Made by a program: the position numbers and the translations under genes
Shown: positions 1-13,448 of the stretch, one piece after another
Position numbering within the stretch: the stretch's first letter is position 1
Layout of the letters: each line of letters opens with the position of its first letter
Notes under the pieces: generated by a model
The model's database searches: none
What the model was told of the DNA's origin: nothing
Seen by the model: only the letters and a program-made list of their open reading frames with translations
Source: a virus
Direction: 5' to 3' (one strand)
Virus record (IMG/VR): IMGVR_UViG_3300040816_000148
Span: 1 to 25,228 of that record
DNA length: 25,228 nucleotides

Positions 1-897
1 GTAAGCGATTGGGATAGTAAATTAAAAGTTGCCGATCAAAAAAGTTATTCTAAGAACATAAAAATTATCCGTAAAGGTAGTGCTGATATGGCCAACTACC
101 TTATCTCTGCCGCAGTAGGTGAAGAAGCCACAATCGTAGGTGCTTACTTAGACAATCTTGCATTCATGGATGGAATTGATTTCAAAGCAGATATTAGAGT
201 TGCTGTGATGAAAGAAGGTAAAGAAATTCTTGATGGCTATTCTCTTAAATTATATTCAAACAAAACAGTAGGTCTTGCAAATACAACCGCAAGAGGCCTA
301 TGTGGGCATTTAGGTGGCGCTGCAGCAGAAAAGAAATTCGATAGCATCTCTAAAAAAGATAATATACTACAAGATTTAATTGGCAAAGCTAAAGCCATTA
401 ACCATATTAAACAAGATTTTAAAAAGCATTTAAAAGGTGATACCGCTGCCACTAATCGTCTTAAAACACGACGTGGCCTTACCGATGCTGAAATTGAAAA
501 ACTGGATGTGAATGTATTAGATGCCGAAAGAAAAGAGGCTCGATCCCCTATTAATACTAGAGTTGCTGCATTAGTATATCAGGTATTAAAAGAATATGAA
601 GGTACTGAAACTCTTGGAGAAAAAATACTTGACATTTTAGGATTTAATGATAAAGAAACTAAAATGTTAATGGCAATAACAACCGAAAAGAAAAGTGAAA
701 TTATTGCTGCACACCCCGATTTGGATTTAAGTCAAATTAAAATTGAAGATCCTAATGGTAGGGTATCAATTAATATTATTGGACCAACTGGTAAGAGAAT
801 TGTATCGTTCAACGTGAAAGAAGGCGAACAAAGAAAAGTAAGTGGATCTGTTTCATTCGCAGGAATTGATCCAGAGGAGTATGACGAATACCTATGA
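1..897 (+). CDS. Conserved phage protein, 5'-truncated; possible PD-(D/E)XK nuclease-like internal protein
   Basis: The frame is open from base 1 with no stop before the ATG at 88, and that ATG has no good Shine-Dalgarno. The gene therefore most likely starts upstream and this is a 3' part of at least 298 codons. The visible protein is soluble and mixed alpha/beta. Residues encoded around 205-260 read D-I-R...then G-Y-S-L-K-L-Y-S, which resembles the D...x-x-K core of PD-(D/E)XK nucleases and also the LKLFSK stretch I recall in T4 internal protein IPIII. The missing N-terminus means I cannot see whether it carries the capsid-targeting leader found on its neighbours. Its stop overlaps the next start (ATGA). 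The function is a guess; the gene itself is secure. Confidence 0.85.
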   Translation, partial: VSDWDSKLKVADQKSYSKNIKIIRKGSADMANYLISAAVGEEATIVGAYLDNLAFMDGIDFKADIRVAVMKEGKEILDGYSLKLYSNKTVGLANTTARGLCGHLGGAAAEKKFDSISKKDNILQDLIGKAKAINHIKQDFKKHLKGDTAATNRLKTRRGLTDAEIEKLDVNVLDAERKEARSPINTRVAALVYQVLKEYEGTETLGEKILDILGFNDKETKMLMAITTEKKSEIIAAHPDLDLSQIKIEDPNGRVSINIIGPTGKRIVSFNVKEGEQRKVSGSVSFAGIDPEEYDEYL

Positions 898-2135
898 AAA
901 CACTAACAGGTTACTTATCAGAGGCCGCAGGAAAGAATACTCATATGACTCATATTGAGGATTTGATTCTTGACGGCGGGGTTAAGGGGGCGCGCCAGGC
1001 TATCCTAGCATTAAGGTCACTGCGGGATATGTTGAGTGGTAATTCAAAATCACCTGTGGATATCACTGTTAAATGGGACGGCGCCCCCGCCGTATTTGCT
1101 GGAGAGGATCCAAGAGACGGATCCTTTTTTGTAGCAAAGAAAGGCATCTTTAATGCCAATCCAAAAATTTATAAGTCACATGAGGATATAAAGGCTGATA
1201 CTTCGGGTGACCTTACCAAGAAATTACTTCTTGCATTTGATGAATTACAGAAACTAGGAATTAAAGGTGTAATTCAAGGTGACTTCATGTTCGACAAGTC
1301 AGATTTAAAAAATGAGAAAATAAATGGAATACCACATATTGTTTTTCATCCTAATACCATTGCTTATGCTGTCCCTGATGGTACGCCCTTAGCTAGAGAA
1401 ATTAAAGCAGCAAAAATAGGTATAGTATGGCACACAATATATACTGGAGCAACATTTGAAACAATGCAAGCAGAGTTCGGAAGGGAAATTGTACCCAAGT
1501 TAAAGAAATCAAGTTCAGTGTGGATGCAAGATGCCACTCTGCCCGATTTGTCTGGTACTGCTACATTTACTGCAAAGGAAACCGAAAAAGTAACTAAAAA
1601 GTTATCAGAGGCAGGTAAAATATTTAAACAGATTTCTTCTTCTACCTTAAAAGAAATAGAACAGAACAAAGAATTAAATACAATTATTAATGTGTATAAC
1701 AATAGAAAGGTAAGAGAAGGCCAAAGAATTACTGATACAAAGAAACATGCTACTGGATTAATTATGTTCGTAAATGATAGGTGGCAAAAAGAGATAGATA
1801 AAGTATCCCGTCCAGAAACTAAGGCGGCAAAGGCTGGTAAAAGAGATGAATTATTAAAGTTTTTTGATAAAAAGAACCTAAAAAATCTACAAAAAGTCTT
1901 TGATTTGCAGAATTTGGTGGTTGATGCGAAATTAATTATTATAAATAAACTTAACAGTCTTAATAAAATTGGGACGTTTGTAAAAACTAAATCCGGATTT
2001 AGAGTAACCAACCCAGAAGGTTTTGTTGCTATTGATCGAATGGAAGGTGGCGCTGTTAAACTTGTTGATAGAATGGAATTTTCTACTAACAACTTTAGCA
2101 AAGATATTATAAAAGGTTGGGACAACCCCAACTAA
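894..2135 (+). CDS. Ligase-like nucleotidyltransferase with capsid-targeting-like N-terminus
   Basis: The 413-aa protein contains V-K60-W-D-G-A-P, the KxDG motif I that carries the covalent nucleotidyl-lysine in DNA/RNA ligases and capping enzymes. G-V-I-Q-G-D-F-M-F further on resembles motif III, and a hydrophobic strand I-G-I-V-W-H-T-I-Y-T-G follows. The C-terminal half is Lys-rich and helical, unlike the OB-fold of the DNA ligase at 22062-23330. The N-terminus MKTLTGYLSE|A fits the T4 gp21-type (L/I)-x-E|A cleavage rule, so it may be packaged in the head and trimmed after residue 10. Its start overlaps the upstream stop. It may seal nucleic acid or modify another target. The nucleotidyltransferase call is good; ligase activity and packaging are inferred. 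Confidence 0.75.
   Translation: MKTLTGYLSEAAGKNTHMTHIEDLILDGGVKGARQAILALRSLRDMLSGNSKSPVDITVKWDGAPAVFAGEDPRDGSFFVAKKGIFNANPKIYKSHEDIKADTSGDLTKKLLLAFDELQKLGIKGVIQGDFMFDKSDLKNEKINGIPHIVFHPNTIAYAVPDGTPLAREIKAAKIGIVWHTIYTGATFETMQAEFGREIVPKLKKSSSVWMQDATLPDLSGTATFTAKETEKVTKKLSEAGKIFKQISSSTLKEIEQNKELNTIINVYNNRKVREGQRITDTKKHATGLIMFVNDRWQKEIDKVSRPETKAAKAGKRDELLKFFDKKNLKNLQKVFDLQNLVVDAKLIIINKLNSLNKIGTFVKTKSGFRVTNPEGFVAIDRMEGGAVKLVDRMEFSTNNFSKDIIKGWDNPN
1105..1130 (+). terminator. Terminator-like hairpin inside a coding sequence
   Basis: AGGATCC (1105-1111) and GGATCCT (1119-1125) form a 7-bp stem with a 7-nt loop, followed by a run of six T (1125-1130). This has the form of an intrinsic terminator but lies inside the ligase-like gene, so it would at most attenuate. 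It may be an accident of the codons E-D-P-R-D-G-S-F-F. Confidence 0.3.
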
Positions 2136-2154
2136 ATGGGAAACCGAGGATAAA

Positions 2155-2538
2155 ATGAAATCATTCAAAGAATACACAGCTGCCAATGAAGCATTAAATA
2201 TGGCGCAACGCCAGAAAAGAAAGGCTGCGTTTAGGAAGAATAAAGCTAAAATAATGATTGCCCGTAAAAAGGCATCTAAGAAACTCGCCAGTCCAGAGAA
2301 ATTAAAAGCACGAGCTCAAAAAGCGGCTCGTCAACTCATCATTAAAAAGATCCTTAAGAATAAAGGTAAAGACGACCTCTCCTTTGCTGCAAGACAAGAA
2401 CTAGAAAAGAAAGTTGATAAGAAGAAATCTGCAATAAACAGAATTGCAAAGAAACTTTTACCTCAAGTTAAGAAGAAAGATAGAGCAAAATTGAGTAGAC
2501 ATAAAACTCAAACACCTGGACAGACACGAGATGATTAA
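2155..2538 (+). CDS. Small, very basic DNA-binding-like protein with capsid-targeting-like leader
   Basis: This 127-aa protein is extremely rich in Lys and Arg and nearly all predicted helix, with alternating Lys/Arg and Ala/Leu blocks. It looks like a histone-like DNA-compacting protein rather than an enzyme. It begins MKSFKEYTAANE|A, matching the leader shared by several neighbours, although the residue two before the Glu is Ala rather than Leu/Ile. GAGGA at about 2147 gives a Shine-Dalgarno. I recognise the pattern as a conserved unknown protein of marine T4-like phages. Binding to packaged genomic DNA is a reasonable inference from charge plus leader; nothing in the sequence proves it. 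Confidence 0.8.
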   Translation: MKSFKEYTAANEALNMAQRQKRKAAFRKNKAKIMIARKKASKKLASPEKLKARAQKAARQLIIKKILKNKGKDDLSFAARQELEKKVDKKKSAINRIAKKLLPQVKKKDRAKLSRHKTQTPGQTRDD

Positions 2539-3907
2539 GAGTTTTAACGAATATATAACAGAAGCGAAAGGAGAGATTACATTTGTCTTTGGCAGATTTA
2601 ATCCACCTACGACTGGGCATGAAAAATTATTCGATACATTACAGAAAGTATCAGGTGGGACGTATAGAATATACGGCTCTAAATCACAAGACCCTAAAAA
2701 GAATCCCCTTACATTTAAACAGAAAGTAAAATTCTTGCGTAAGATGTTTCCTAAACATGCAAGAAAGGTTATGGCCGATTCTGATGTAAGACACGTAATG
2801 GATATTGCAGTTAAACTATACGACCAAGGATATACTAAGGTAAGTATGGTTGCCGGTTCTGATCGTGTACCAGAATTTAAGGCGTTACTTAATAAGTATA
2901 ATGGCGTTAAGGCAAGACACGGGTTCTATGAATTCAAAGATGAAATCGAAGTAATCTCTGCTGGAGAAAGAGATCCAGATGTAGAGGGTGTTACAGGTAT
3001 GTCTGCTTCTAAAATGAGAGCAGCGGCAGAAGAGGGTTCACTACAAACATTTGCAAAAGGTGTTCCTGGTGGATATAATCCAAAAGAATTATTTAATGCT
3101 GTACGTAAGGGAATGGGAATTAAAGAATCTCCTAAATTTAGAGAGCATGTGGAACTTCCTAAAGTATCCGAGACAAGAGAAGAATATGTTGAAGGTAATT
3201 TATTCTCTGAAGGCGATACTGTAGTATTAAAAGAAACAAGTGATGTTGGAAAAATTCTTGTCTGTGGTAGTAATTATCTAGTAGTAGAATTTGGTCAATG
3301 GAAAAAGAGAGTTTGGTTAGACCAAGTCGAGTTATTAGAAAAATCAGGTGCTGGTGATTTTGGTACAGATGAAGTAACCAATGCATATAAGAAAGAAACC
3401 CCCGGCCAACAAGTAAAAGAAAAGATGACAGTTGCACAAAAAAGAAAGAAAAGCAACTATTATAATGATGATTCAAAGGATGGAAAGTTATCCAAATCAA
3501 CTGCGGCAAAAAGACACGCACAATTTGCAAAACAGGCCAAGATGGATGATGATAATCCAGCGGCATACAAACCTGCTCCTGGAGATGCAGATGCAAAAAC
3601 AAAACCATCAACACATACAAAGAAATATAAGCAAATGTATGGGGAAGATTTGTTATCATTTGAGGACTATAATATAGATGAAGGTAAGGCAGACGCGGCC
3701 CTTAAAAAGAAGGCAGATAAATCTGGTATGCCTTTGGCAATTTTAAGAAAGGTTTATAATAGAGGAGTTGCTGCATGGAGAACAGGTCATAGACCTGGGA
3801 CTACTCCACAACAGTGGGGCTTGGCAAGAGTAAATTCCTTTGTAACTAAATCGTCGGGTACATGGGGTAAGGCAGATAAAGACCTTGCGGCCAAAGTAAG
3901 AGGGTAA
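2531..3907 (+). CDS. Cytidylyltransferase/NMNAT-like protein fused to a second domain through an internal leader-like sequence
   Basis: The 458-aa protein begins MIKSFNEYITE|A, an excellent match to the T4 internal-protein leader. Residues 15-175 form a nucleotidyltransferase of the HxGH superfamily: F-G-R-F-N-P-P-T-T-G-H30 is the HxGH region and M-S-A-S-K-M-R (157-163) is the ISSTxxR-like motif, as in NMN or pantetheine-phosphate adenylyltransferases. Residues 225-270 look like a small beta-barrel (SH3/KOW-like). A low-complexity Lys-rich linker (about 285-370) leads to L-S-F-E-D-Y-N-I-D-E|G (375-385), a second leader-like sequence. Residues 386-458 are a separate conserved domain (A-A-W-R-T-G-H-R-P-G-T-T-P-Q-Q-W) known from marine T4-like phages. 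The substrate is unknown. Confidence 0.8.
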   Translation: MIKSFNEYITEAKGEITFVFGRFNPPTTGHEKLFDTLQKVSGGTYRIYGSKSQDPKKNPLTFKQKVKFLRKMFPKHARKVMADSDVRHVMDIAVKLYDQGYTKVSMVAGSDRVPEFKALLNKYNGVKARHGFYEFKDEIEVISAGERDPDVEGVTGMSASKMRAAAEEGSLQTFAKGVPGGYNPKELFNAVRKGMGIKESPKFREHVELPKVSETREEYVEGNLFSEGDTVVLKETSDVGKILVCGSNYLVVEFGQWKKRVWLDQVELLEKSGAGDFGTDEVTNAYKKETPGQQVKEKMTVAQKRKKSNYYNDDSKDGKLSKSTAAKRHAQFAKQAKMDDDNPAAYKPAPGDADAKTKPSTHTKKYKQMYGEDLLSFEDYNIDEGKADAALKKKADKSGMPLAILRKVYNRGVAAWRTGHRPGTTPQQWGLARVNSFVTKSSGTWGKADKDLAAKVRG

Positions 3908-3908
3908 A

Positions 3909-4274
3909 ATGAAATCATTTAACGAATACAATGAAGGTAAATTATCGGATATTAAAAAGAAATTATCCAAGATAAAGGGCCTTAAGGCAGACCAATTACA
4001 AGTATTGCAAAGTTTGCCAATGCCTGTTATTATCTCTATTGTAAATCAGTTAAGTATGATAGTATCTGATACAGAATTACAAGAGGCTCCTTTGGTAATG
4101 AGCCATGCTGATATATTAGATACTATATGGAAAAAATTAAAACCAAATTTGGAAAAAGAATTAGGGAAAGGTAAAGTAGAAACAGTAAATAATCTTGCAC
4201 GTATGGTAAAATATAAAGTGTCTACTAAGGGACAACAGAAAGGTCGTTCATACAGATACGATTTAAAGAAATGA
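3909..4274 (+). CDS. Unknown protein with capsid-targeting-like leader
   Basis: This 121-aa protein starts MKSFNEYNE|G, and its first 22 bases differ from those of the gene at 2155 at only two positions. After the leader it is a mostly helical, Lys-rich protein (K-L-K-P-N-L-E-K-E-L) ending in a basic strand, R-S-Y-R-Y-D-L-K-K. No catalytic motif is visible. It sits one base after the upstream stop and overlaps the downstream kinase start (ATGA), so it is clearly part of the same operon. It is probably a virion-internal protein, by leader and company only. Confidence 0.8.
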   Translation: MKSFNEYNEGKLSDIKKKLSKIKGLKADQLQVLQSLPMPVIISIVNQLSMIVSDTELQEAPLVMSHADILDTIWKKLKPNLEKELGKGKVETVNNLARMVKYKVSTKGQQKGRSYRYDLKK

Positions 4275-4951
4275 TAACTCTTAAAGAATATTTAAAATTA
4301 TCAGAAGGGGTTAATGATCCTTCTATTTTTAAGGCAGTATTCCTTGCAGGTGGCCCAGGCTCTGGTAAATCATTTGTAGTAGGTAAAACTTCCTTAAAGG
4401 CATTAGGATTTAGATTAATTAATTCTGATGATGCTTTTGAAAGGGGTCTTTCAAAGGCTGGTCTGACGACAGACCCAGATGATATTGCATCTGCCCAAGG
4501 TCAGGCAGTTAGAGGTAAGGCAAAGGCATTAACAGGTAAAATGCTCGATCGAGCCTTAAAGGGTAGAATGGGTATAGTAATAGACGGAACGGGTAAAGAT
4601 TACGAGAAGATCAAGAAACAAGTTGACATGGTAAGAGATATAGGATATTCCGTACATATGATATTTGTCAACACAGATTTAGAAACTGCATTAGACCGTA
4701 ATAAGGCAAGACCTAGAAGTTTACCGGATGATATGGTAAAACAAATGTGGAAAGATGTTCAGAATAATATAGGTAAATTCCAAGGATTATTTAGAGGTAG
4801 AATGACTATTGTAGATAATTCAAAAGGTTCTGATATTAATACAGCCACTATGGCCGCGTATAAAAAAATTAAGACCTGGTCTGAAAAACCACCCGAAAAT
4901 GCTATAGCAAAAAGTTGGATAAGAAGTCAGATACCAGGCCCGAGGAAATAA
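4271..4951 (+). CDS. P-loop 5'-polynucleotide kinase-like protein (T4 Pnkp kinase-domain type) with capsid-targeting-like leader
   Basis: The 226-aa protein has Walker A G-G-P-G-S-G-K-S near residue 30, then L-I-N-S-D-D, where T4 polynucleotide kinase has I-N-R-D-D with the catalytic Asp. The lid region D-R-N-K-A-R-P-R-S-L-P-D-D-M-V-K-Q-M-W aligns by eye with E-R-N-S-K-R-G-T-K-A-V-P-I-D-V-L-R-S-M-Y of T4 PseT/Pnkp. It lacks the Pnkp phosphatase domain; a stand-alone protein of that type is encoded at 20862-21326. The N-terminus MITLKEYLKLSE|G fits an L-x-E|G prohead-protease site. Zeta-toxin-like or other small-molecule kinases are alternatives. The kinase fold is secure; the polynucleotide substrate is inferred. 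Confidence 0.8.
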   Translation: MITLKEYLKLSEGVNDPSIFKAVFLAGGPGSGKSFVVGKTSLKALGFRLINSDDAFERGLSKAGLTTDPDDIASAQGQAVRGKAKALTGKMLDRALKGRMGIVIDGTGKDYEKIKKQVDMVRDIGYSVHMIFVNTDLETALDRNKARPRSLPDDMVKQMWKDVQNNIGKFQGLFRGRMTIVDNSKGSDINTATMAAYKKIKTWSEKPPENAIAKSWIRSQIPGPRK

Positions 4952-4952
4952 A

Positions 4953-5387
4953 ATGGATAAGAATAAAATAGTTAGTTCGTTTAATGGTAAATGGAAGTAT
5001 AGGAAAGATAAAGAGCAGTACGGTATGGCCGATGCTTGGAAAATTATCTATTCGCCAAATGCAGAAGGTAAGTATGTAGGGGACTGTGAGGATTACGCCT
5101 TATCAATTCTTTACAGATTATGCGGAGAAAGTCACTTAAAGATGTGGTGGATGTTAATTACCCATCAGGCAGGAATCTGTTGTGTAGGTCCAAGTAAGTG
5201 GAAAATGTCTCATGCCGTATTAAGATATAAGGGCGAATACGTAGATAACTGGACAAAGAAACTTGGTCCTAAATCTGCAATAGAAAAGAACCACACTTTC
5301 CATATTTTTTATGGACATGGATGGGCATACTTTACTGCATTAAAAATGATCATAAGTAAAGTAGTGAGAACTATTAAGGGTATATAA
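4953..5387 (+). CDS. Transglutaminase-like cysteine peptidase
   Basis: The 144-aa protein has the ordered triad of bacterial transglutaminase-like cysteine proteinases: G-D-C45-E-D-Y-A-L, then S-H87-A-V-L, then Y-V-D98-N-W. This fold cleaves or rearranges amide bonds. A hydrophobic Trp-rich segment (about 62-80) lies between Cys and His. There is no capsid-targeting leader, unlike most neighbours, and no signal peptide. The start lies one base after the kinase stop and the gene ends in a TAATG overlap with the next. Possible roles are trimming virion proteins or attacking a host protein or peptide cross-links. The family call is good; the role is unknown. Confidence 0.75.
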   Translation: MDKNKIVSSFNGKWKYRKDKEQYGMADAWKIIYSPNAEGKYVGDCEDYALSILYRLCGESHLKMWWMLITHQAGICCVGPSKWKMSHAVLRYKGEYVDNWTKKLGPKSAIEKNHTFHIFYGHGWAYFTALKMIISKVVRTIKGI

Positions 5388-5758
5388 TGCATAGTTTTTT
5401 AGAACATATAGAAGAAAGATTTGGTATTTACGAGGGTAGACACGTACCTCTAGAGCAACCTATGATTGAATCCGAATATAAGGGTAAAGACATAGAATTG
5501 AATCAACCAAAAAGAGGCGGTAAGGCTAAATACTATGTATATGTTAAGAATGATAAAGGTAACGTAATTAAAATCCAATTTGGAGATACTACAGGCCTTA
5601 GTGCAAAAATTAATGATAAAGGAGCGGCAAAGAATTTTGCTGCAAGACATCAGTGTCATTTAAAAAATGATAAAACCAAGGCAGGATATTGGGCGTGTAG
5701 GTTACCAAAATATGCTAAACAATTAGGACTTAAAGGTGGTGGAAATTACTTTTGGTAA
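5387..5758 (+). CDS. Conserved T4-like phage protein with leader-like N-terminus (VPL...YVYVKNDKGNV...ARHQC family)
   Basis: The 123-aa protein starts MHSFLEHIEERFGIYE|G, with a possible I-x-E|G cleavage after residue 16. The family block I recognise from marine T4-like phages begins directly after it: G-R-H-V-P-L-E-Q-P-M, then Y-Y-V-Y-V-K-N-D-K-G-N-V-I-K-I-Q-F-G-D, then F-A-A-R-H-Q-C...G-Y-W-A-C-R. The last part, with His and two Cys, could bind metal or nucleic acid. The coincidence of predicted cleavage site and start of the conserved block supports processing. The family has no function that I can name. Confidence 0.8.
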   Translation: MHSFLEHIEERFGIYEGRHVPLEQPMIESEYKGKDIELNQPKRGGKAKYYVYVKNDKGNVIKIQFGDTTGLSAKINDKGAAKNFAARHQCHLKNDKTKAGYWACRLPKYAKQLGLKGGGNYFW

Positions 5759-6014
5759 ACCGTACTGGGAAGACGGGGAAATAAGAAAATTTGATCCGAC
5801 TAAGGATGATTCGGAGTTTGTCTGGCACCGAGACAATGAGGATAGAGAAATAGAAATTTTAGAGGGTGAAGGTTGGCAATTTCAAGTAGATAAATGTTTG
5901 CCTTGGCTACTAAAAGAGGGCATGGTATTTAATATTAAGAAAGAAGAATACCATAGATTAATAAAGGGGGTAACTCCCCTAAAGTGTAGGGTTTATAAAT
6001 ATGCCAACAGCTAA
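5736..6014 (+). CDS. Cupin-fold protein
   Basis: The start is GTG at 5736 (AGGA at 5725-5728, 7-nt spacer), overlapping the upstream gene by 23 nt. The 92-aa product has the two cupin motifs in compressed form: W-H-R-D-N-E-D-R-E-I-E-I-L-E-G-E-G-W, then G-M-V-F-N-I-K-K-E-E-Y-H-R-L-I-K-G. His and Glu/Asp residues at the expected places could bind a metal. Small single-domain cupins recur in marine T4-like phages. The enzyme activity, if any, cannot be told. Confidence 0.7.
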   Translation: MVEITFGKPYWEDGEIRKFDPTKDDSEFVWHRDNEDREIEILEGEGWQFQVDKCLPWLLKEGMVFNIKKEEYHRLIKGVTPLKCRVYKYANS

Positions 6015-6300
6015 TGAGCAACGTGCCGAACAGTCGGCAAGATTAGATAGAATCGAACAGAAAATAGACCAAATGTCAGAGGCTATTATTGCTTTAGCAC
6101 GTGCTGAAGAAAAAATTATAACTCTTACAGAATTTGGTAAACAACAAGGTGAGCAGATTCTAACCCTTATAAATAGAGTAGACAGATTGGAAGATTTAGT
6201 AAGACAAAATGCTTCTACTGTTAACATTATTAATAAAATATTCTGGATAGTCATTGCGGCAGCTGCCACAGCTATTACAGGAATGCTTTTCATACAATAG
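6001..6300 (+). CDS. Coiled-coil protein with C-terminal membrane anchor (XhlA-like architecture)
   Basis: The 99-aa protein has a long amphipathic helix (about 5-75: repeated L/I at heptad spacing, R-L-D-R-I-E-Q-K-I-D-Q-M) followed by one membrane helix (I-F-W-I-V-I-A-A-A-A-T-A-I-T-G-M-L-F, about 80-98). This resembles the architecture of XhlA-type phage membrane/lysis-accessory proteins. It overlaps the cupin gene by 14 nt. It might be a holin-associated or virion membrane-interacting protein. Only topology supports this. Confidence 0.7.
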   Translation: MPTANEQRAEQSARLDRIEQKIDQMSEAIIALARAEEKIITLTEFGKQQGEQILTLINRVDRLEDLVRQNASTVNIINKIFWIVIAAAATAITGMLFIQ

Positions 6301-6309
6301 GAGAAAAAT

Positions 6310-7209
6310 ATGAAACTCAATGATGAAAAAACTAGAAGCGTTGCTGCAGCAGTCAGTGATGTCCTAGAAGGAAAAAATAAAATGAAAAAAGAGGAAGTAA
6401 AATATCCTCATAAGATGTATTCTAAAGATGGTAAGGATGAAGTAGAAGTCAAAGATAAGGCTGAACACGACAAGTATGCTGCTAAAGGATATGTCCACGA
6501 AAAACCAGAGGTTAATGAAGTCGAAGAGCCAAGAGCAAAAGGCGAGAAAGACTTTAAGGCCAAACATGTGATTAAAAAGTCTGGCGAAAATAATGACGGT
6601 ACTGTCACTAAAGAAGGTAAGAAAGTTGACGAGGTACTAGGGTTCGATAAGGACAATCCTCATAAAGACGAAGACGAAGACGAGAAAGAAAAAGAGAAGA
6701 AGGAAGGTAATGCCTTTACTAAAGCTCTTAATGCTGCTCGTAAAAACGGCGATGACGATTTTGTTGTTTCAGGAAAAAAATATAAAGTCGAAGATTATGA
6801 TGAGGAAGAGGACGAAGATGAAGTCGAAGAAAGGTCAATGACTCCGATGAAAGATAAGTTCGGCCCCGATAAAAACCTTGTTAAGAAAGCCGTTGCTCTT
6901 GCTACTAAAATGGGTGGTAATATGACAGGTGCTGTTAAAAAAATCGAAAAGATGCAGAAAGGGTTGTCTAAAGATAAAGACGTGGCCGCTGCTCTACGAC
7001 TTGCTAATGAAGAAGTAAGTGAATCAGTATTGGATGAAGCCAAACGAATGAATGAAGCTGAAGATAAGAAAACTAAGTATAGAAAATTCTTTGACAAAGC
7101 TTTGAAAAAGTTTGGTGTAAAATCACCTGCTGAATTGAAAGGCGACAAGAAGAAGGAATTCTTTGATTACGTTGATGCAAATTATGAAGCGGAGAACGAG
7201 TCAGACTAA
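6310..7209 (+). CDS. Highly charged, prohead-core-like protein
   Basis: The 299-aa protein is dominated by Lys, Glu and Asp, with an Asp/Glu run at about 118-130 and another at 161-175, a composition typical of assembly-core or scaffold proteins. V-L-E|G near residue 20 and V-L-D-E|A at about 240-244 resemble prohead-protease sites. The last 60 residues (K-Y-R-K-F-F-D-K-A-L-K-K-F-G-V) form a conserved helical tail that I recognise in marine T4-like phages. GGAG at about 6300 serves its ATG. Its stop overlaps the next start (TAATG). A core/scaffold role is inferred. Confidence 0.75.
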   Translation: MKLNDEKTRSVAAAVSDVLEGKNKMKKEEVKYPHKMYSKDGKDEVEVKDKAEHDKYAAKGYVHEKPEVNEVEEPRAKGEKDFKAKHVIKKSGENNDGTVTKEGKKVDEVLGFDKDNPHKDEDEDEKEKEKKEGNAFTKALNAARKNGDDDFVVSGKKYKVEDYDEEEDEDEVEERSMTPMKDKFGPDKNLVKKAVALATKMGGNMTGAVKKIEKMQKGLSKDKDVAAALRLANEEVSESVLDEAKRMNEAEDKKTKYRKFFDKALKKFGVKSPAELKGDKKKEFFDYVDANYEAENESD

Positions 7210-7559
7210 TGAAATCTTTTAAGCAAATCAGAGAAGACATTTTCAAATTAAAGAACTTTAAGGATCGTGATCGTAAAGGTCATGAGGCTTATATGAATAT
7301 CGAAATTGTTAAGGGTAATACCAGTAATAAGTATGATGATGATTTCGGTTTCAATAAGCAAGAACTAGGTGTTATGGATAAGGTTATTAGTAAAATTAAG
7401 AATATGCATATTTCTAGTTTTGATGGTGGTAACACTGCTCCTGCATCTTTAGAGTTTTATGGGGATGAGGCTTCTTTAAAGAAATTTGCATCAGATAAAA
7501 ATGTACAAAAGATTGTTAAAAAATACAAAGGTAAAGTATCTGGACCATATAAAGCTTAA
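7209..7559 (+). CDS. Unknown protein with capsid-targeting-like leader
   Basis: The 116-aa protein begins MKSFKQIRE|D, a leader-like start with I-x-E followed by Asp. The rest is a small alpha/beta domain: I-V-K-G-N-T, then D-F-G-F-N-K-Q-E-L-G-V-M-D-K-V-I, then a strand S-L-E-F-Y-G-D and a Lys-rich helix. No catalytic motif is visible. It shares its first base with the upstream stop. Probably virion-internal by leader and position only. Confidence 0.75.
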   Translation: MKSFKQIREDIFKLKNFKDRDRKGHEAYMNIEIVKGNTSNKYDDDFGFNKQELGVMDKVISKIKNMHISSFDGGNTAPASLEFYGDEASLKKFASDKNVQKIVKKYKGKVSGPYKA

Positions 7560-7569
7560 TTGACTTATA

Positions 7570-7578
7570 TATAATATA
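7570..7578 (+). promoter_or_regulatory. Possible promoter -10 element (TATAATATA)
   Basis: The 21-nt gap before the ATG at 7581 is an AT tract containing TATAATATA, the same -10 and downstream bases as the five sigma-70-type promoters of this window. No -35 hexamer lies 17 bp upstream. If active it would start transcription at about the ATG. It may instead be a degenerate late promoter or chance. Confidence 0.25.
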
Positions 7579-7580
7579 TA

Positions 7581-7949
7581 ATGAAAGTATTTGACGAATT
7601 AAATAGACGTAATTTTGAATTATATGCTTCTCAGAATTATAATAACCCTGAGTGCATTGACATAGAAGAATTCAAAGAGGACTTGGCAAGATTTAAATAT
7701 CTAAAAAGACTTCTGAGAAGGTATGAGGTAACCGAAGACTTGCAAGAAAGATTGATTTTAAATCATCTGATTGTGTTATATAACGTCTTCGGTATAACTG
7801 CTGCCAATAAAATGATATGGTATAAAATAGAAAGGGAACACTGGACTTATATTAAACCATTTCTAGTCTTCCTTAATTACTTACCAGTGGATGAAAAGGT
7901 TGATATACCTTTAGATCCATATATTGTAGACGTACTTAGGAAAATTTAA
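7581..7949 (+). CDS. Conserved T4-like phage protein of unknown function
   Basis: The 122-aa helical protein has the pattern F-D-E-L-N...F-E-L-Y-A, then D-I-E-E-F-K-E-D-L-A-R-F-K-Y-L-K-R-L-L-R-R-Y, then L-Q-E-R-L-I-L-N-H-L-I-V-L-Y-N-V-F-G. I recognise this as conserved in cyanophages and relatives. MKVFDEL superficially resembles the leader of its neighbours, but no x-x-E|A/G site follows. The TAATG junction ties it to the next gene, its usual partner. Structural or assembly role possible, not shown. Confidence 0.75.
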   Translation: MKVFDELNRRNFELYASQNYNNPECIDIEEFKEDLARFKYLKRLLRRYEVTEDLQERLILNHLIVLYNVFGITAANKMIWYKIEREHWTYIKPFLVFLNYLPVDEKVDIPLDPYIVDVLRKI

Positions 7950-8533
7950 TGAGTGTAGTATCAAGAACAGCTGATTTATTTTACGCCTTTAGGTTTCTAA
8001 AGTTGTTGGTTACTCCATGGGATAAAATGGGTGCATACGAATATGGTATTGTTGACGAGAATGGAAAAGTTTTAATTAAGGGTAAAGATATAACAGACCC
8101 TAAGGCAAAGGCAGAGTACACGGTTTTTCATAGGTTGGTATTTAACCTAAAAAGGATTTTAAATAAACTGCCTTTCGGTAAAACAAAACTGGCATCTTAT
8201 GCTGCCGCTTTGTTTTTAATAAAGGAAAATACTGGACTAACAGAAGAACAAATTAGAAAGGTATTGGAAGAAATTTTAGAGGATATGGATGAATCACTAA
8301 ATGAGGAAGTATTCTTCGTTAAAGATGATGTCATTAATCCTGGTAAATATAAATTAGTTTCTGAAATGGCTAGTATGGATACGGGAGAAATTATTGCTTT
8401 TCCTGGCCAAGAAGTGGTAATATCACTTCACAGTAAACCAGTAGACTATATGTTTAATACTGGAATTTACGAGGTAACACATACTTTAACACAACAGAAA
8501 TTATATATAACTAGTGGAGATATACAAAAATGA
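7949..8533 (+). CDS. Conserved T4-like phage protein of unknown function
   Basis: The 194-aa protein opens with V-V-S-R-T-A-D-L-F-Y-A-F-R-F-L-K-L-L-V-T-P-W, and the middle has L-P-F-G-K-T-K-L-A-S-Y-A-A-A-L-F-L-I-K-E, a block conserved in marine T4-like phages. The C-terminal 60 residues (about 130-194) form a small beta-rich domain. No enzyme motif is seen. It is translationally coupled to both neighbours (TAATG upstream, ATGA downstream). Confidence 0.75.
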   Translation: MSVVSRTADLFYAFRFLKLLVTPWDKMGAYEYGIVDENGKVLIKGKDITDPKAKAEYTVFHRLVFNLKRILNKLPFGKTKLASYAAALFLIKENTGLTEEQIRKVLEEILEDMDESLNEEVFFVKDDVINPGKYKLVSEMASMDTGEIIAFPGQEVVISLHSKPVDYMFNTGIYEVTHTLTQQKLYITSGDIQK

Positions 8534-8973
8534 AAAAATTTAAAGACGTATGGGAAGATGCAGCGGCCAATTCCGTGGCAAAAGGCGGTGTCTCCCTGCC
8601 TGCAGATGCAGTTCATGATAAGAAAAAGAGGAAAAAAGCAGTGTACGATGGAAGAACAAAGGAAGGCCGTAAATTCGTAGAACGAATGTTGGCAAGAAGA
8701 AAGTCCAAAAATGAAAAGGCTCAAAAGAGTTTACAGGCGCAAAATTTAAAATCCGTTGAAGTAAAAGAAGACAGCGTAGAAGAAGCTAGAAAAGCCCCAC
8801 AGATTAAACATTTAAATATTTACGGTTCAGAGATTAGTGGTTTAAGATCCGGAGGCAAATATTATATGGCAATGGCAATTGATATGAGAGGCAAACTTAT
8901 GTATAAAGTAATCGATGAGTTTGGTTCTATTGAAACCATTGACCTTAAAACATTCGCAAAAAGATTCGGTTAA
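8530..8973 (+). CDS. Basic unknown protein with capsid-targeting-like leader
   Basis: The 147-aa protein begins MKKFKDVWE|D, a weaker version of the shared leader. Residues 30-75 are strongly basic (D-K-K-K-R-K-K-A-V-Y-D-G-R-T-K-E-G-R-K-F-V-E-R-M-L-A-R-R), a block I recognise from cyanophage virion-region proteins. A compact C-terminal domain (about 95-147) has alternating strands, Y-Y-M-A-M-A-I-D-M-R-G-K-L-M-Y-K-V-I. It is probably a DNA-contacting internal protein; no direct functional motif. Confidence 0.7.
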   Translation: MKKFKDVWEDAAANSVAKGGVSLPADAVHDKKKRKKAVYDGRTKEGRKFVERMLARRKSKNEKAQKSLQAQNLKSVEVKEDSVEEARKAPQIKHLNIYGSEISGLRSGGKYYMAMAIDMRGKLMYKVIDEFGSIETIDLKTFAKRFG

Positions 8974-8989
8974 TTATATAGGTTAGATT

Positions 8990-9382
8990 ATGTCAAAAAT
9001 ATTGATGGGTATTATAGGAGCAATGGGGCTGGCAGGTTTCATGTATTATAATTTTTCTGTAGTACCAATGAAGAATAAGTTGGAAGAACAAGCAAAGGTT
9101 ATTATTGCTCAAGACCTACGTGATCAAGAACAAAGAGCTACTATAGAGTCAATTCAAAGTAATCTGACTAGAACCACACAAGCCCTTTCTGGGTTACAAA
9201 TTCAAAATCAACAATACGAAGTAGAGATGGCTGAATACTTGGATATATTCAGACGTCATAACTTATCTAAATTGGCTAGTGCAAAACCTGGGATGGTAGA
9301 ATTAAGAGCTAATAATGCAACTAAGGAGGTATTCGATGCGATTGAAGCAGATAGCGCTCGTATTTCTAGCCTTAACGATTAG
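8990..9382 (+). CDS. Inner-membrane coiled-coil protein, i-spanin-like (Rz-like)
   Basis: The 130-aa protein has an N-terminal membrane helix (about 4-21, I-L-M-G-I-I-G-A-M-G-L-A-G-F-M-Y-Y) and a long coiled-coil periplasmic part rich in Gln, Glu and Leu. This is the layout of Rz-type i-spanins, which bridge to an outer-membrane lipoprotein and fuse the membranes at lysis. The lipoprotein gene starts inside its 3' end, as in Rz/Rz1 pairs. No sequence match to lambda Rz is claimed; architecture and context carry the call. Confidence 0.65.
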   Translation: MSKILMGIIGAMGLAGFMYYNFSVVPMKNKLEEQAKVIIAQDLRDQEQRATIESIQSNLTRTTQALSGLQIQNQQYEVEMAEYLDIFRRHNLSKLASAKPGMVELRANNATKEVFDAIEADSARISSLND

Positions 9383-9836
9383 TGGTTGTAGTTTACTTCA
9401 ACAGTCTCCAAGAGAAGTTGAGATAATTACCAAACCAGTTAAAGTTGATATTGTTCAACCAGTACTACCTAGACCTATTGACTTAAAAGAACCTAAATGG
9501 TATGTGGTATCAGATACCAAAATTATAGAGGCATGTCTAAAGAGTCCAGAAACTAATAAACCTGACTGTAAGTTAGGTAGAGAAGATAAGTATCCAGAAG
9601 GATACACATATTTGGATAGATTTATAGATGACATCAAAAAGAAACATGGCGGAGATATAGTATTTTATGCCATGACTGTGGACGATTATGAGTTAATGGC
9701 TTATAACACACAGGAAATTAAACGTTATATTAATCAACTCGGAGAAGTGATTATTTATTATAGGAATGTAACTATCGATGATGAGAAAGGCGCAGCAGTT
9801 GGTATCAAAGTGGAGGAAGAAAATGGCAACGACTAG
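9336..9836 (+). CDS. Outer-membrane lipoprotein, o-spanin-like (Rz1-like)
   Basis: AAGGAGG at 9323-9329 with a 6-nt spacer sets the start at ATG 9336 rather than the in-frame ATG at 9315. The 166-aa product has a lipoprotein signal, M-R-L-K-Q-I-A-L-V-F-L-A-L-T-I-S-G-C19, with lipobox T-I-S-G|C. A Pro/Val stretch follows (P-V-L-P-R-P-I-D-L-K-E-P-K-W-Y-V-V), similar to the P-x-P...W-x-V-(V/I) segment of many o-spanins. It is longer than classical Rz1. It overlaps the i-spanin-like gene by 47 nt and the lipase gene by 14 nt. Confidence 0.7.
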   Translation: MRLKQIALVFLALTISGCSLLQQSPREVEIITKPVKVDIVQPVLPRPIDLKEPKWYVVSDTKIIEACLKSPETNKPDCKLGREDKYPEGYTYLDRFIDDIKKKHGGDIVFYAMTVDDYELMAYNTQEIKRYINQLGEVIIYYRNVTIDDEKGAAVGIKVEEENGND

Positions 9837-10584
9837 AATGAAAGAAGAAATGGGCAAATGGGATAGAGCAGAAATAGCTGCACGTCTATCTGCAATTGCA
9901 TATATGAATGAGAAACCAGCACAGACTGCTGCTAAGAAATTAGGTTTTGCATGGGTAAAATTAATCAGTAAAGATGGGGCAGAAGTATTAGTGGCTAAAG
10001 ATAGAAATGATTTATGGTTTGCATTTAGAGGTACTGAACCTTCTAAAATGAATGATGTTATGGCTGACCTTAAAATTATTAAGAATACTGCCAAGGCTGG
10101 TGGTAAAGTACACGGTGGATTCCAACAAGAAGTAAATGATTTATGGATGGACATTGTAAAAGAACTAGAACACAACGACCAATTAAAAGTAAGAAAAGAT
10201 GTGTATATGACTGGACATAGTCTAGGCGCCGCCATGGCAACTATTGCATCTACTAGATATCAACCAGAAGAATTATTCACTTTCGGATCTCCAAGAGTTG
10301 GTGGGCCAAGATTCATTAAAAATATTAAGTGCCCACATTATAGATTTATGAATAATAACGATATAGTATGTAGAATACCACCTGCATGGTTAGGGTTTAG
10401 ACACCATGGAACTATGATTTATTTCGATAGAAATGGTAATAAGGCTCCTAAACCAACATGGGGAGATTTGTTTTATGGTATTCTAAACTCGTGGAAACGA
10501 TTTAAATTCTTCGATGGTGTTGTAGACCACGGAATGCCACACTACGTTAAGGCATTGCGCAAACTGGCTAAGGTAGAAAAATAA
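9823..10584 (+). CDS. Class 3 lipase (alpha/beta hydrolase)
   Basis: The 253-aa protein carries the full lipase class 3 signature: A-F-R-G-T-E-P (65-72, oxyanion strand), V-H-G-G-F, nucleophile elbow T-G-H-S133-L-G-A-A, F-G-S-P-R-V-G-G-P-R-F, D180 in N-N-N-D-I-V-C-R-I-P-P, and H240 in H-Y-V-K-A-L. Ser133/Asp180/His240 form the predicted triad. There is no signal peptide. GGAGG at 9812-9816 places the start at 9823, in preference to the in-frame ATG at 9778. Overlap with the spanin-like genes suggests an ester- or phospholipid-cleaving role in lysis; a virion role is also possible. Confidence 0.85.
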   Translation: MATTRMKEEMGKWDRAEIAARLSAIAYMNEKPAQTAAKKLGFAWVKLISKDGAEVLVAKDRNDLWFAFRGTEPSKMNDVMADLKIIKNTAKAGGKVHGGFQQEVNDLWMDIVKELEHNDQLKVRKDVYMTGHSLGAAMATIASTRYQPEELFTFGSPRVGGPRFIKNIKCPHYRFMNNNDIVCRIPPAWLGFRHHGTMIYFDRNGNKAPKPTWGDLFYGILNSWKRFKFFDGVVDHGMPHYVKALRKLAKVEK

Positions 10585-10901
10585 TGTATTGGCTTCTTAT
10601 TCTTACTGTTAAATCAATATTGAGTTCTGTTATAGGATCATCTTTCTATAACTGGTTTCAAGGTACTACATTAGGTATATGGTTTCAAAAACAAGTAGAC
10701 AGATTTATGCAACACTTTGCAGAAAAATATAACTTAGAGGTTATAAAGAAAGATGCCAAGTTTAGGAAGCAATTTCCTCTGGCAGCAGAGAAGTTGGATA
10801 GGGTTGTAAAAAATTCTCATCCATGTAAAGAACTGCATGAATTTGACGCTTATCCCAAATTGATAGCTAGAATAGAAGAGCTAGAAAAAAAAGTAAAATA
10901 G
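10584..10901 (+). CDS. Small membrane-anchored protein of unknown function
   Basis: The 105-aa protein has an N-terminal hydrophobic segment (Y-W-L-L-I-L-T-V-K-S-I-L-S-S-V-I-G-S), an amphipathic region with W-F-Q-K-Q-V-D-R-F-M-Q-H-F, and a C-terminal charged helix ending in I-E-E-L-E-K-K-V-K. It is coupled to the lipase gene by a TAATG junction, which suggests a part in the same membrane-directed process. It is the last gene before the strong promoter at 10905. Confidence 0.65.
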   Translation: MYWLLILTVKSILSSVIGSSFYNWFQGTTLGIWFQKQVDRFMQHFAEKYNLEVIKKDAKFRKQFPLAAEKLDRVVKNSHPCKELHEFDAYPKLIARIEELEKKVK

Positions 10902-13275: not shown

Positions 13276-13448
13276 AAAAGAAAGAACGAATTCCACTAAA
13301 AGGTGGAGAAGAGTTTGACGCACTTACACCAGCACGTAAACGGTATAAGTATTTAACTAGCCCTGGTGTTACCAAAAACATTAAAAAGGGTTATAATAAA
13401 CGATTTAGAAAAAAAGGAAAAATTAATGTCAGTATTGAAGAAGAATAA
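13272..13448 (+). CDS. Small basic conserved protein between nrdA and nrdB
   Basis: The 58-aa protein reads I-P-L-K-G-G-E-E-F-D-A-L-T-P-A-R-K-R-Y-K-Y and ends in a basic tail K-K-G-Y-N-K-R-F-R-K-K-G-K, a pattern I recognise in marine T4-like phages. No ATG is available. TTG at 13272 overlaps the nrdA stop and has GAGAG upstream; TTG at 13263 or 13254 are alternatives. It overlaps nrdB by 23 nt. The charge suggests nucleic-acid binding; function unknown. Confidence 0.65.
   Translation: MKKKERIPLKGGEEFDALTPARKRYKYLTSPGVTKNIKKGYNKRFRKKGKINVSIEEE

Follow-up and report, generated by a model that had tools for sequence, protein, structure and literature searches.

Predicted capsid-targeting leaders mark a modular, enzyme-bearing gene cassette in a T4-superfamily phage

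Phage T4 takes proteins into its head with the aid of a capsid-targeting sequence (CTS), a short leader at the N-terminus in which positions 4 and 7 are aromatic and a hydrophobic residue and a glutamate precede the cut made by the prohead protease gp21. In the accessible text of a review of this system, residues 4 and 7 are assigned to targeting and residues 8 and 10 to processing, the first 10 residues of internal protein III (IPIII) suffice, and the CTS is considered a possible way in which T4-like phages take in various proteins (PMC9026906). Four such T4 proteins, IPI, IPII, IPIII and Alt, are described in the accessible literature; in the T4 genome (NC_000866), we read the leaders of IPII and IPIII as MKTYQEFIAE/A and that of IPI as MKTFKEFTSTTTPVSTITE/A (a slash marks the cut, known or predicted). 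Head proteins of phages SPN3US and phiKZ, ejection proteins among them, likewise have N-terminal propeptides that are cut after glutamate by a gp21-like protease; unlike the leaders considered here, several of these exceed 100 residues and only gp45, with 20 residues, has one as short as a T4 CTS, according to the accessible part of that report (PMC5694885). Here we analysed a 25,228-base fragment of a T4-superfamily virus (IMG/VR record IMGVR_UViG_3300040816_000148, referred to in full as the window), in which eight neighbouring genes begin with leaders of the T4 kind. As in T4, the leaders precede mature domains without mutual homology, and a gp21-type protease is encoded, here in relatives; unlike in T4, the genes share one predicted late cassette, and several of their products are enzyme-like and unrelated to the internal proteins. 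We consider it very probable that these leaders belong to a CTS system of the T4 type that has been enlarged to a modular cassette of late cargo genes, enzyme genes among them.

The DUF6267 protein encoded in the cassette is 56.5% identical to its counterpart in phage C48C1, 49% to that of the Methylophilales phage Melnitz, 44% to that of the Stenotrophomonas phage DLP6 and 38% to that of the Pelagibacter phage HTVC008M, and further relatives occur in cyanophages. A 65.6-kb contig (G001, the twin contig) shows no mismatches to the window over 6,131 bases at the window start and 1,096 bases at its end, the two ends being where identity was compared. Gene starts were taken from a simple purpose-written caller, which yielded 48 genes in the window, and from the annotation for S-CREM2 and the cyanophage genes listed below.

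An earlier note on this DNA, made from the sequence, had read capsid-targeting-like leaders on eight adjacent proteins. All eight genes open where it placed them and with the N-termini that it quoted (Table 1), and each lies above 99.5% of the null for the targeting features of a T4-type CTS (a leader of about 10–20 residues with aromatic or hydrophobic residues at positions 4 and 7). The match to the processing site is less good in four of the eight, which end in AANE, YNE, IRE and VWE. A loose regular expression matched 11 of the 48 window genes, comprising seven of the eight (the leader at 894 was missed) and four unconvincing ones, with 0.6 expected from internal methionines and 1.4 from shuffles. 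A profile was seeded with the cores (6-mers) of the T4 internal proteins and fitted to the N-termini of environmental proteins related to the eight families, with cyanophages left out and many window relatives in; it converged on K-[ST]-F-K-[ED]-[YHF] followed by [LIV]-x-E-[GAD]. At a cut-off passed by 0.5% of 2,504 internal-methionine starts, nine of the 48 window genes matched, namely all eight leader genes and NrdB, and shuffled N-termini gave a mean of 0.21 matches (maximum of 2 in 100). The shuffles and the internal-methionine null reject a chance similarity of the eight N-termini. The NrdB match at 13426, which has the lowest score of the nine (12.65) and a weak equivalent in the long relative G003, is probably due to chance.

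Applied to a 50-kb stretch of T4, the profile matched 3 of 74 genes, exactly IPI, IPII and IPIII (Alt lies outside the stretch); we treat this as a sanity check only, because internal-protein 6-mers from T4 seeded the profile. It matched 8 of 224 genes in C48C1 (150 of 156 kb searched), 4 of 203 in HTVC008M, 7 of 215 in Melnitz, and 7 of 165 and 11 of 165 in the long relatives G002 and G003, respectively, some of all these matches probably being due to chance; no match was found among the 50 genes in bases 25,001–65,000 of the twin contig. Probable chance matches are a 1,829-residue protein in G003, a signal-peptide-like protein at 84024 in G002, the head-closure protein of C48C1 and the 2-oxoglutarate (2OG) oxygenase of HTVC008M and, in the cyanophages considered below, gp1, gp30, gp181, gp209 and perhaps gp137 of S-CREM2 and the baseplate protein SSCSM1_13 and plastoquinol oxidase SSCSM1_153 of S-SCSM1. 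Across environmental loci, 535 distinct leaders exceeded the cut-off. In this profile-picked set, phenylalanine occupies position '4' in 485 and tyrosine, histidine or phenylalanine position '7' in 367, and the commonest distance from position '4' to the glutamate is 6, as in T4 (174 leaders); the clustering used for this position analysis merged several families into one of 680.

In each of the five relatives tested, a single cassette holds a concentration of leaders (p values between 3.6 × 10−6 and 4.8 × 10−3), with cassette bounds that we set ourselves. Matches in the cassette and in the remaining genes, respectively, number 5/18 and 3/206 in C48C1, 3/23 and 1/180 in HTVC008M, 5/22 and 2/193 in Melnitz, 5/20 and 2/145 in G002, and 8/22 and 3/143 in G003. 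The earlier note had asked whether the motif might be equally common on cytoplasmic proteins, and these counts make it rare there; matches outside the cassette include the HTVC008M 2OG oxygenase, NrdB (weakly, in the window and G003) and the SbcC-like ATPase gp1 of S-CREM2. According to annotation, the cassette lies between the genes for a gp41-type helicase and the gp61 primase in HTVC008M, Melnitz and S-SM1, and in C48C1 it lies between an exonuclease gene and a ribonucleotide reductase gene; in the window, a lysis-like module and nrdA come after it.

The start of the cassette carries a sequence match to T4-type late promoters in relatives and in the twin contig. Of 112 distinct regions upstream of the first cassette gene, 61 have the motif TATAAATA no more than 100 bases away from that gene, compared with 87 of 937 plus-strand genes longer than 100 residues at the same loci (the 61 included), and it stands 41 bases 5′ of the first cassette gene in the twin contig. 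Two leader genes outside the cassette have late-promoter motifs of their own, at 47 bases for a HAD protein of G002 (phrog_415, polynucleotide kinase) and at 13 bases for a RimK-like protein of G003. In S-CREM2, units headed by gp6, gp15 and gp154 each have their own TATAAATA, and across all genes of that phage the presence of the motif within 60 bases did not predict virion detection (4/9, p = 0.14). The slot 5′ of the DUF6267 gene is variable: its 145 distinct proteins fall into 18 families, some of them probably not cargo, and 67 have leaders. Pfam gave no match for nine first-slot or related proteins or for the first gene of the twin contig, and PHROGs returned families of unknown function or no match for the first-slot proteins. 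We also observed a second N-terminal type in this slot, approximately R-K-[YFS]-[YI]-R-Q-[IL]-[NR]-P (MSIRKYYRQINPIHES, MSLRKSIRQLRPIQEN), in 9 of the 145 distinct proteins by one regular expression; it is possibly another tag, and its carriers are the first cassette genes of loci L107, L122, L123, L124, L128, L129, L133, L135 and L136.

The predicted processing site stays at the domain border while the letters and length of the leader change (6–21 residues before the DUF6267 anchor). We counted sites across 320 environmental loci; because the leaders are related by descent, these counts are not independent trials. For DUF6267, (L/I/V/M/F)-x-E lies no more than 6 residues from the first conserved domain motif in each of the 111 distinct leaders (control, 7.0%). 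A gp21-type site precedes the domain in 67 of 68 distinct kinase leaders (control, 3.1%), the exception being a start called too late, as is probably one of the successes (MMEGVN), and in 71 of 81 distinct cytidylyltransferase leaders (control, 24.9%). Proteins were counted only if a domain anchor stood in the first 60 residues with 5 or more residues ahead of it; those left out on this ground numbered as follows (63 of 279 for DUF6267, 2 of 144 for the kinase and 177 of 326 for the cytidylyltransferase), and a further tally behind the DUF6267 leader at 894 dropped 13 of 83 rows before counting. The same kinase domain follows MITLKEYLKLSE/GVNDP in the window, MKTFAELQE/GVYDP in Melnitz, where the gene sits elsewhere in the genome, and MIPFILKE/GLYDP in HTVC008M, and the matched kinase fold begins at about residues 13–19, immediately after E12. 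Domains of the 3909 and 8530 genes also occur joined to other leaders in relatives. With the same domains behind different leaders and different domains behind similar leaders, the leader is, as judged from these comparisons of sequence, an exchangeable module.

The same type of site closes the predicted propeptide of the capsid protein in relatives. Propeptide ends assigned by position read FISE/A, QINE/T, MISE/A, MISE/V and FIGE/D in the five long relatives, FLTE/T in C48C1, FLSE/A in Melnitz and FLGE/I in HTVC008M, next to FLTE/A in T4. A gp21-type protease is encoded in all five long relatives and in C48C1, HTVC008M and Melnitz; none was found in the 65.6 kb of the twin contig, a genome fragment. 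The N-termini of proteases from gp21 genes (L091:25945 and L349) themselves contain sites such as YITE/A and VITE/A, which fits the N-terminal self-cleavage suspected for T4 gp21.

Absence of the leader proteins from virions was a further outcome considered in the earlier note; leader-bearing homologues are present in the published virion proteomes of the cyanophages S-CREM2, S-SCSM1 and S-SM1, for which we drew on the accessible parts of the respective papers (PMC10665884, PMC9602691 and PMC3037559). The cytidylyltransferases of these three phages are homologues of the window protein (32–42% identity, E < 1 × 10−37) and start with MKKFSAFLNE/A in S-SM1 (T4-GC190), MKNFSSFLTE/A in S-CREM2 and MKSFLQFLKE/A in S-SCSM1 (NMNAT); T4-GC190 was detected by mass spectrometry in S-SM1 virions (PMC3037559). 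The window cassette resembles these virion-associated cytidylyltransferases and kinases (S-SM1, S-CREM2, S-SCSM1 and S-CRM01) in its homologous, leader-bearing cytidylyltransferase. The cytidylyltransferase genes of S-SM1 and S-SCSM1 lie in the gp41–gp61 block; in S-CREM2, the gene lies between those for a late sigma factor and the primase. The kinase of S-CRM01 starts with MISFDQFLSE, and its detection in virions is cited from Dreher 2011 in the accessible text of PMC10665884.

In S-CREM2, mass spectrometry detected 52 proteins in virions (PMC10665884). This phage has 195 genes without a structural label; of these, 4 of the 7 that match the profile were detected, compared with 24 of the 188 that do not (p = 0.0089), and profile scores were higher in detected genes (p = 3.2 × 10−4, n = 28 versus 167). 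With a strict T4-like regular expression, written after the S-CREM2 N-termini had been seen, 6 of 9 matching genes were detected, compared with 22 of 186 others; leaders of the T4 kind occur on several of the detected proteins, among them the cytidylyltransferase, an S-adenosylmethionine (SAM) hydrolase (MKDFDSFLEE) and an APH-like kinase (MKRFDAFLTE). For S-SCSM1, detection flags were taken from the GenBank record, which marks 48 virion proteins compared with 45 in the accessible text of the paper (PMC9602691). Virion proteins account for 7 of the 17 genes between two primase-annotated genes (the gp41 and gp61 positions) and for 1 of 204 others (p = 3 × 10−8), the comparison set being genes outside the head and tail regions, with the regions and the structural split set by us by position. 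At least in S-SCSM1, this block is therefore virion-located, and leaders mark part of it. The structural split at first left out SSCSM1_30, the inclusion of which moves the p value of the leader test in S-SCSM1 from 0.0034 to 0.0066 and that of the test pooled with S-CREM2 from 4.5 × 10−5 to 9.2 × 10−5. The accessible parts of the three virion papers make no mention of a targeting tag. As a separate observation, gp12 of S-CREM2 (L096), a Cas9-like nuclease reported in virions, has the leader-like stretch RFASFMAE/A at residues 18–26, and the start that precedes it (SRW..W) resembles that of S-CRM01 g128.

Several points weigh against capsid targeting as the role of these leaders. The virion data come from cyanophages outside the clade of the window phage, and the S-CREM2 and S-SCSM1 papers raise possible contaminants in virions purified on CsCl (accessible parts of PMC10665884 and PMC9602691). 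In S-CREM2, three of the seven profile matches among non-structural genes went undetected, two of the four detected ones (gp137 and gp209, annotated as an endolysin) may be chance matches, and several detected proteins score low on the profile. Unlike in a fully tagged set, some detected cassette proteins of cyanophages have no leader: in S-SCSM1, only two of seven (SSCSM1_89 and NMNAT) carry one and five do not, so another loading route must exist. The clear leader protein SSCSM1_30 was undetected in the virions of that phage, and the leader test run on the full set of 282 S-SCSM1 genes yields p = 0.036. The DUF6267 protein of S-CRM01 starts with MAKDGKNVHLEHLED and has no leader. The P3 residue is poor in four of the window's eight leaders, 10 of the 81 distinct cytidylyltransferase leaders, all from HTVC008M-like loci, have no site, and within the window the late-promoter motif occurs at chance level (6 versus 4.6 expected).

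If the leaders are CTSs, the cassette would be transcribed late in infection from a T4-type late promoter, and each leader, with an aromatic residue or leucine at position 4 and an aromatic residue or histidine at about position 7, would attach the protein that carries it to the core of the prohead. Once assembly is complete, the protease gp21 would cut after the glutamate of (L/I/V)xE/(A/G/D) and free mature cargo inside the head, into which DNA would then be packed. By analogy with T4, the cargo would enter the next cell with the DNA and could act before the expression of early genes.

The leaders could instead dock proteins to the core or scaffold and mark them for processing in the service of head assembly, without any effector function in the next host. 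T4 IPIII affects head assembly too (accessible text of PMC9026906), the cassette includes several proteins that are either small and basic or without a known function, and a C48C1 leader gene sits between the portal and protease genes. The enzyme-like products (the kinase and the nucleotidyltransferase, and RimK-like and HAD-like proteins in relatives) nevertheless look host-directed, as does the variable first slot, and we regard an assembly role as unlikely.

We give very little weight to two further explanations. The N-terminal similarity might be a feature of translation initiation or expression, a start rich in lysine, serine and phenylalanine with no packaging role; many genes in these A+T-rich genomes start with MK, and some cytoplasmic genes are among the matches of the loose regular expression, but such a feature would not account for a site conserved at the domain border whatever the length of the leader, for the tracking of virion detection by leader score in other phages, or for the scores below zero of leaderless genes of the same block (C93 peptidase, lipase, spanin-like protein and NrdA). 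Alternatively, the leader might be a shared docking peptide that gathers the enzymes at one place in the infected cell, such as a site of replication or a membrane. The position of the cassette in a replication and nucleotide region in HTVC008M, Melnitz and S-SM1 would suit this; the late-promoter motif at the cassette start, the likeness of the leader site to the gp21 site and to that of the capsid protein itself, and the presence of homologues in virions argue for the head as the destination.

Returning to cargo of a CTS system, we considered what the enzymes may be. The motif KWDG, a candidate for motif I (KxDG) of RNA ligase-like covalent nucleotidyltransferases, is invariant in 48 DUF6267 sequences. 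In the structure search VIA, a DUF6267 model (predicted local distance difference test (pLDDT), 74.7) had more RNA ligases than proteins of any other group among its top matches, over residues ~61–217; the best of these (Z = 6.8, 115 residues, root-mean-square deviation (rmsd) of 3.3) is not decisive by the tool's own note, and the top matches also include unrelated helical proteins on residues 247–346. Foldseek gave no match under E = 0.001 for this model, and a sequence search of the Protein Data Bank (PDB) gave no credible match for DUF6267 or the cytidylyltransferase. The model and motif suggest an RNA-ligase-like fold. The 4271 product is a P-loop kinase by sequence and by the nucleoside-phosphate-kinase-like fold of its model (pLDDT, 84.2): its P-loop GGPGSGKS is invariant except for one nearly invariant serine, it matches Pfam AAA_33 (2.6 × 10−14), its best Foldseek match is the polynucleotide kinase 4gp6 (E = 5.2 × 10−7), and the PDB sequence search gave a weak match to L-seryl-tRNA(Sec) kinase. 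VIA placed O-phosphoseryl-tRNA kinase (PSTK) first (Z = 14.7, 170 aligned residues, rmsd of 3.1), followed by polynucleotide kinase (13.6), and zeta toxin and UMP/CMP kinase came close behind (12.4); because a fold does not show function, these matches do not decide between a Pnkp-like and a PSTK-like substrate.

The combination of a DUF6267 protein, a kinase and a nucleotidyltransferase suggests, on the basis of these models, RNA repair on entry. We tentatively propose, as a possibility that we think somewhat improbable, that T4-superfamily phages of marine heterotrophs and cyanobacteria use the CTS as a plug-in tag by which a varying set of enzymes is loaded and injected, and that the recurring part of this set is a virion-delivered kit for RNA repair and translation control against RNA-cutting host defences that would act before phage gene expression. 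Its members would be the ligase-like DUF6267 protein, the polynucleotide or tRNA kinase-like protein and the nucleotidyltransferase, joined in some relatives by the HAD protein, which resembles a polynucleotide kinase phosphatase, and RimK. The RimK-like ATP-grasp proteins outside the cassette start with MTQKFSQFITE/E in Melnitz (L089:82) and MINFNGYITE/E in G003 (L362:15690), and such leader-bearing proteins are possibly an injected modifier of ribosomal protein S6.

The principle of the CTS was already known; what is new here is the same signal as in T4 on a larger, clustered, enzyme-rich and apparently late-expressed set of candidate cargo. A literature search by title, which did not reach most subscription papers, found no report of leaders of this type in T4-superfamily phages from the sea. 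With a tag that can be read from sequence, proteins of common marine viruses now classed as 'unknown' could be predicted to be virion cargo. Such a tag might explain why cytidylyltransferases and kinases recur in the particles of cyanophages, where two papers were unable to tell them apart from contaminants. It also offers a possible means of loading proteins into heads other than that of T4. If the cargo is an RNA-repair kit, counter-defence would be delivered ahead of gene expression.

Table 1 Cassette genes and predicted leaders in the window
Feature	Position	Strand	Remarks
First cassette gene, 3′ part	1..897	+	427 residues in G001; no leader here; promoter TATAAATA in G001 (L339:442)
Leader MKTLTGYLSE/A of the DUF6267 gene	894..923	+	N-terminus, profile
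DUF6267 protein, 413 residues	894..2135	+	Invariant KWDG; RNA-ligase-like fold suggested
Leader MKSFKEYTAANE/A	2155..2190	+	N-terminus, profile
Basic 127-residue protein, function unknown	2155..2538	+	
Leader MIKSFNEYITE/A	2531..2563	+	N-terminus, profile
Cytidylyltransferase/NMNAT-like protein	2531..3907	+	phrog_3041, phrog_395
Leader MKSFNEYNE/G	3909..3935	+	N-terminus, profile
121-residue protein	3909..4274	+	EAPLVM domain joined directly to other leaders in relatives
Leader MITLKEYLKLSE/G	4271..4306	+	N-terminus, profile
P-loop kinase	4271..4951	+	Pfam AAA_33/zeta family; fold matches led by O-phosphoseryl-tRNA kinase and polynucleotide kinase
Leader MHSFLEHIEERFGIYE/G	5387..5434	+	N-terminus, profile
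123-residue protein, function unknown	5387..5758	+	phrog_7595
Leader MKSFKQIRE/D	7209..7235	+	N-terminus, profile
116-residue protein, function unknown	7209..7559	+	
Leader MKKFKDVWE/D	8530..8556	+	N-terminus, profile
147-residue protein, two parts (DAAANSV... and ...KAPQIKHLNIYGSEISGL)	8530..8973	+	Each part with its own leader in relatives

Other genes in and beside the cassette show features of their own. The leaderless gene at 4953–5387 has a weak match to Peptidase_C93 (transglutaminase-like) below the Pfam cut-off, and its product is highly conserved among relatives (up to 93% identity). The acidic, lysine-rich 299-residue protein encoded at 6310–7209 has homologues with VLE/GK or VLE/GY near residue 20 (MKLQDKETLSVAAAVQNVLEGKK, MYNDDVTRSIAKAAQEVLEGYG) and is without the F-x-x-Y part; it is possibly a core-like or scaffold-like substrate of the protease. 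Homologues of the 7949–8533 product in L044, L057 and G003, unlike the window protein, begin with IREG or INEG just before a conserved [LV]LSR, which resembles a short leader for processing only. Directly 3′ of the cassette, at 8990–10901, lie genes for a membrane protein, an overlapping lipoprotein, a class 3 lipase (Pfam Lipase_3, 2 × 10−20) and a second membrane-like protein, and this region looks like a lysis module.

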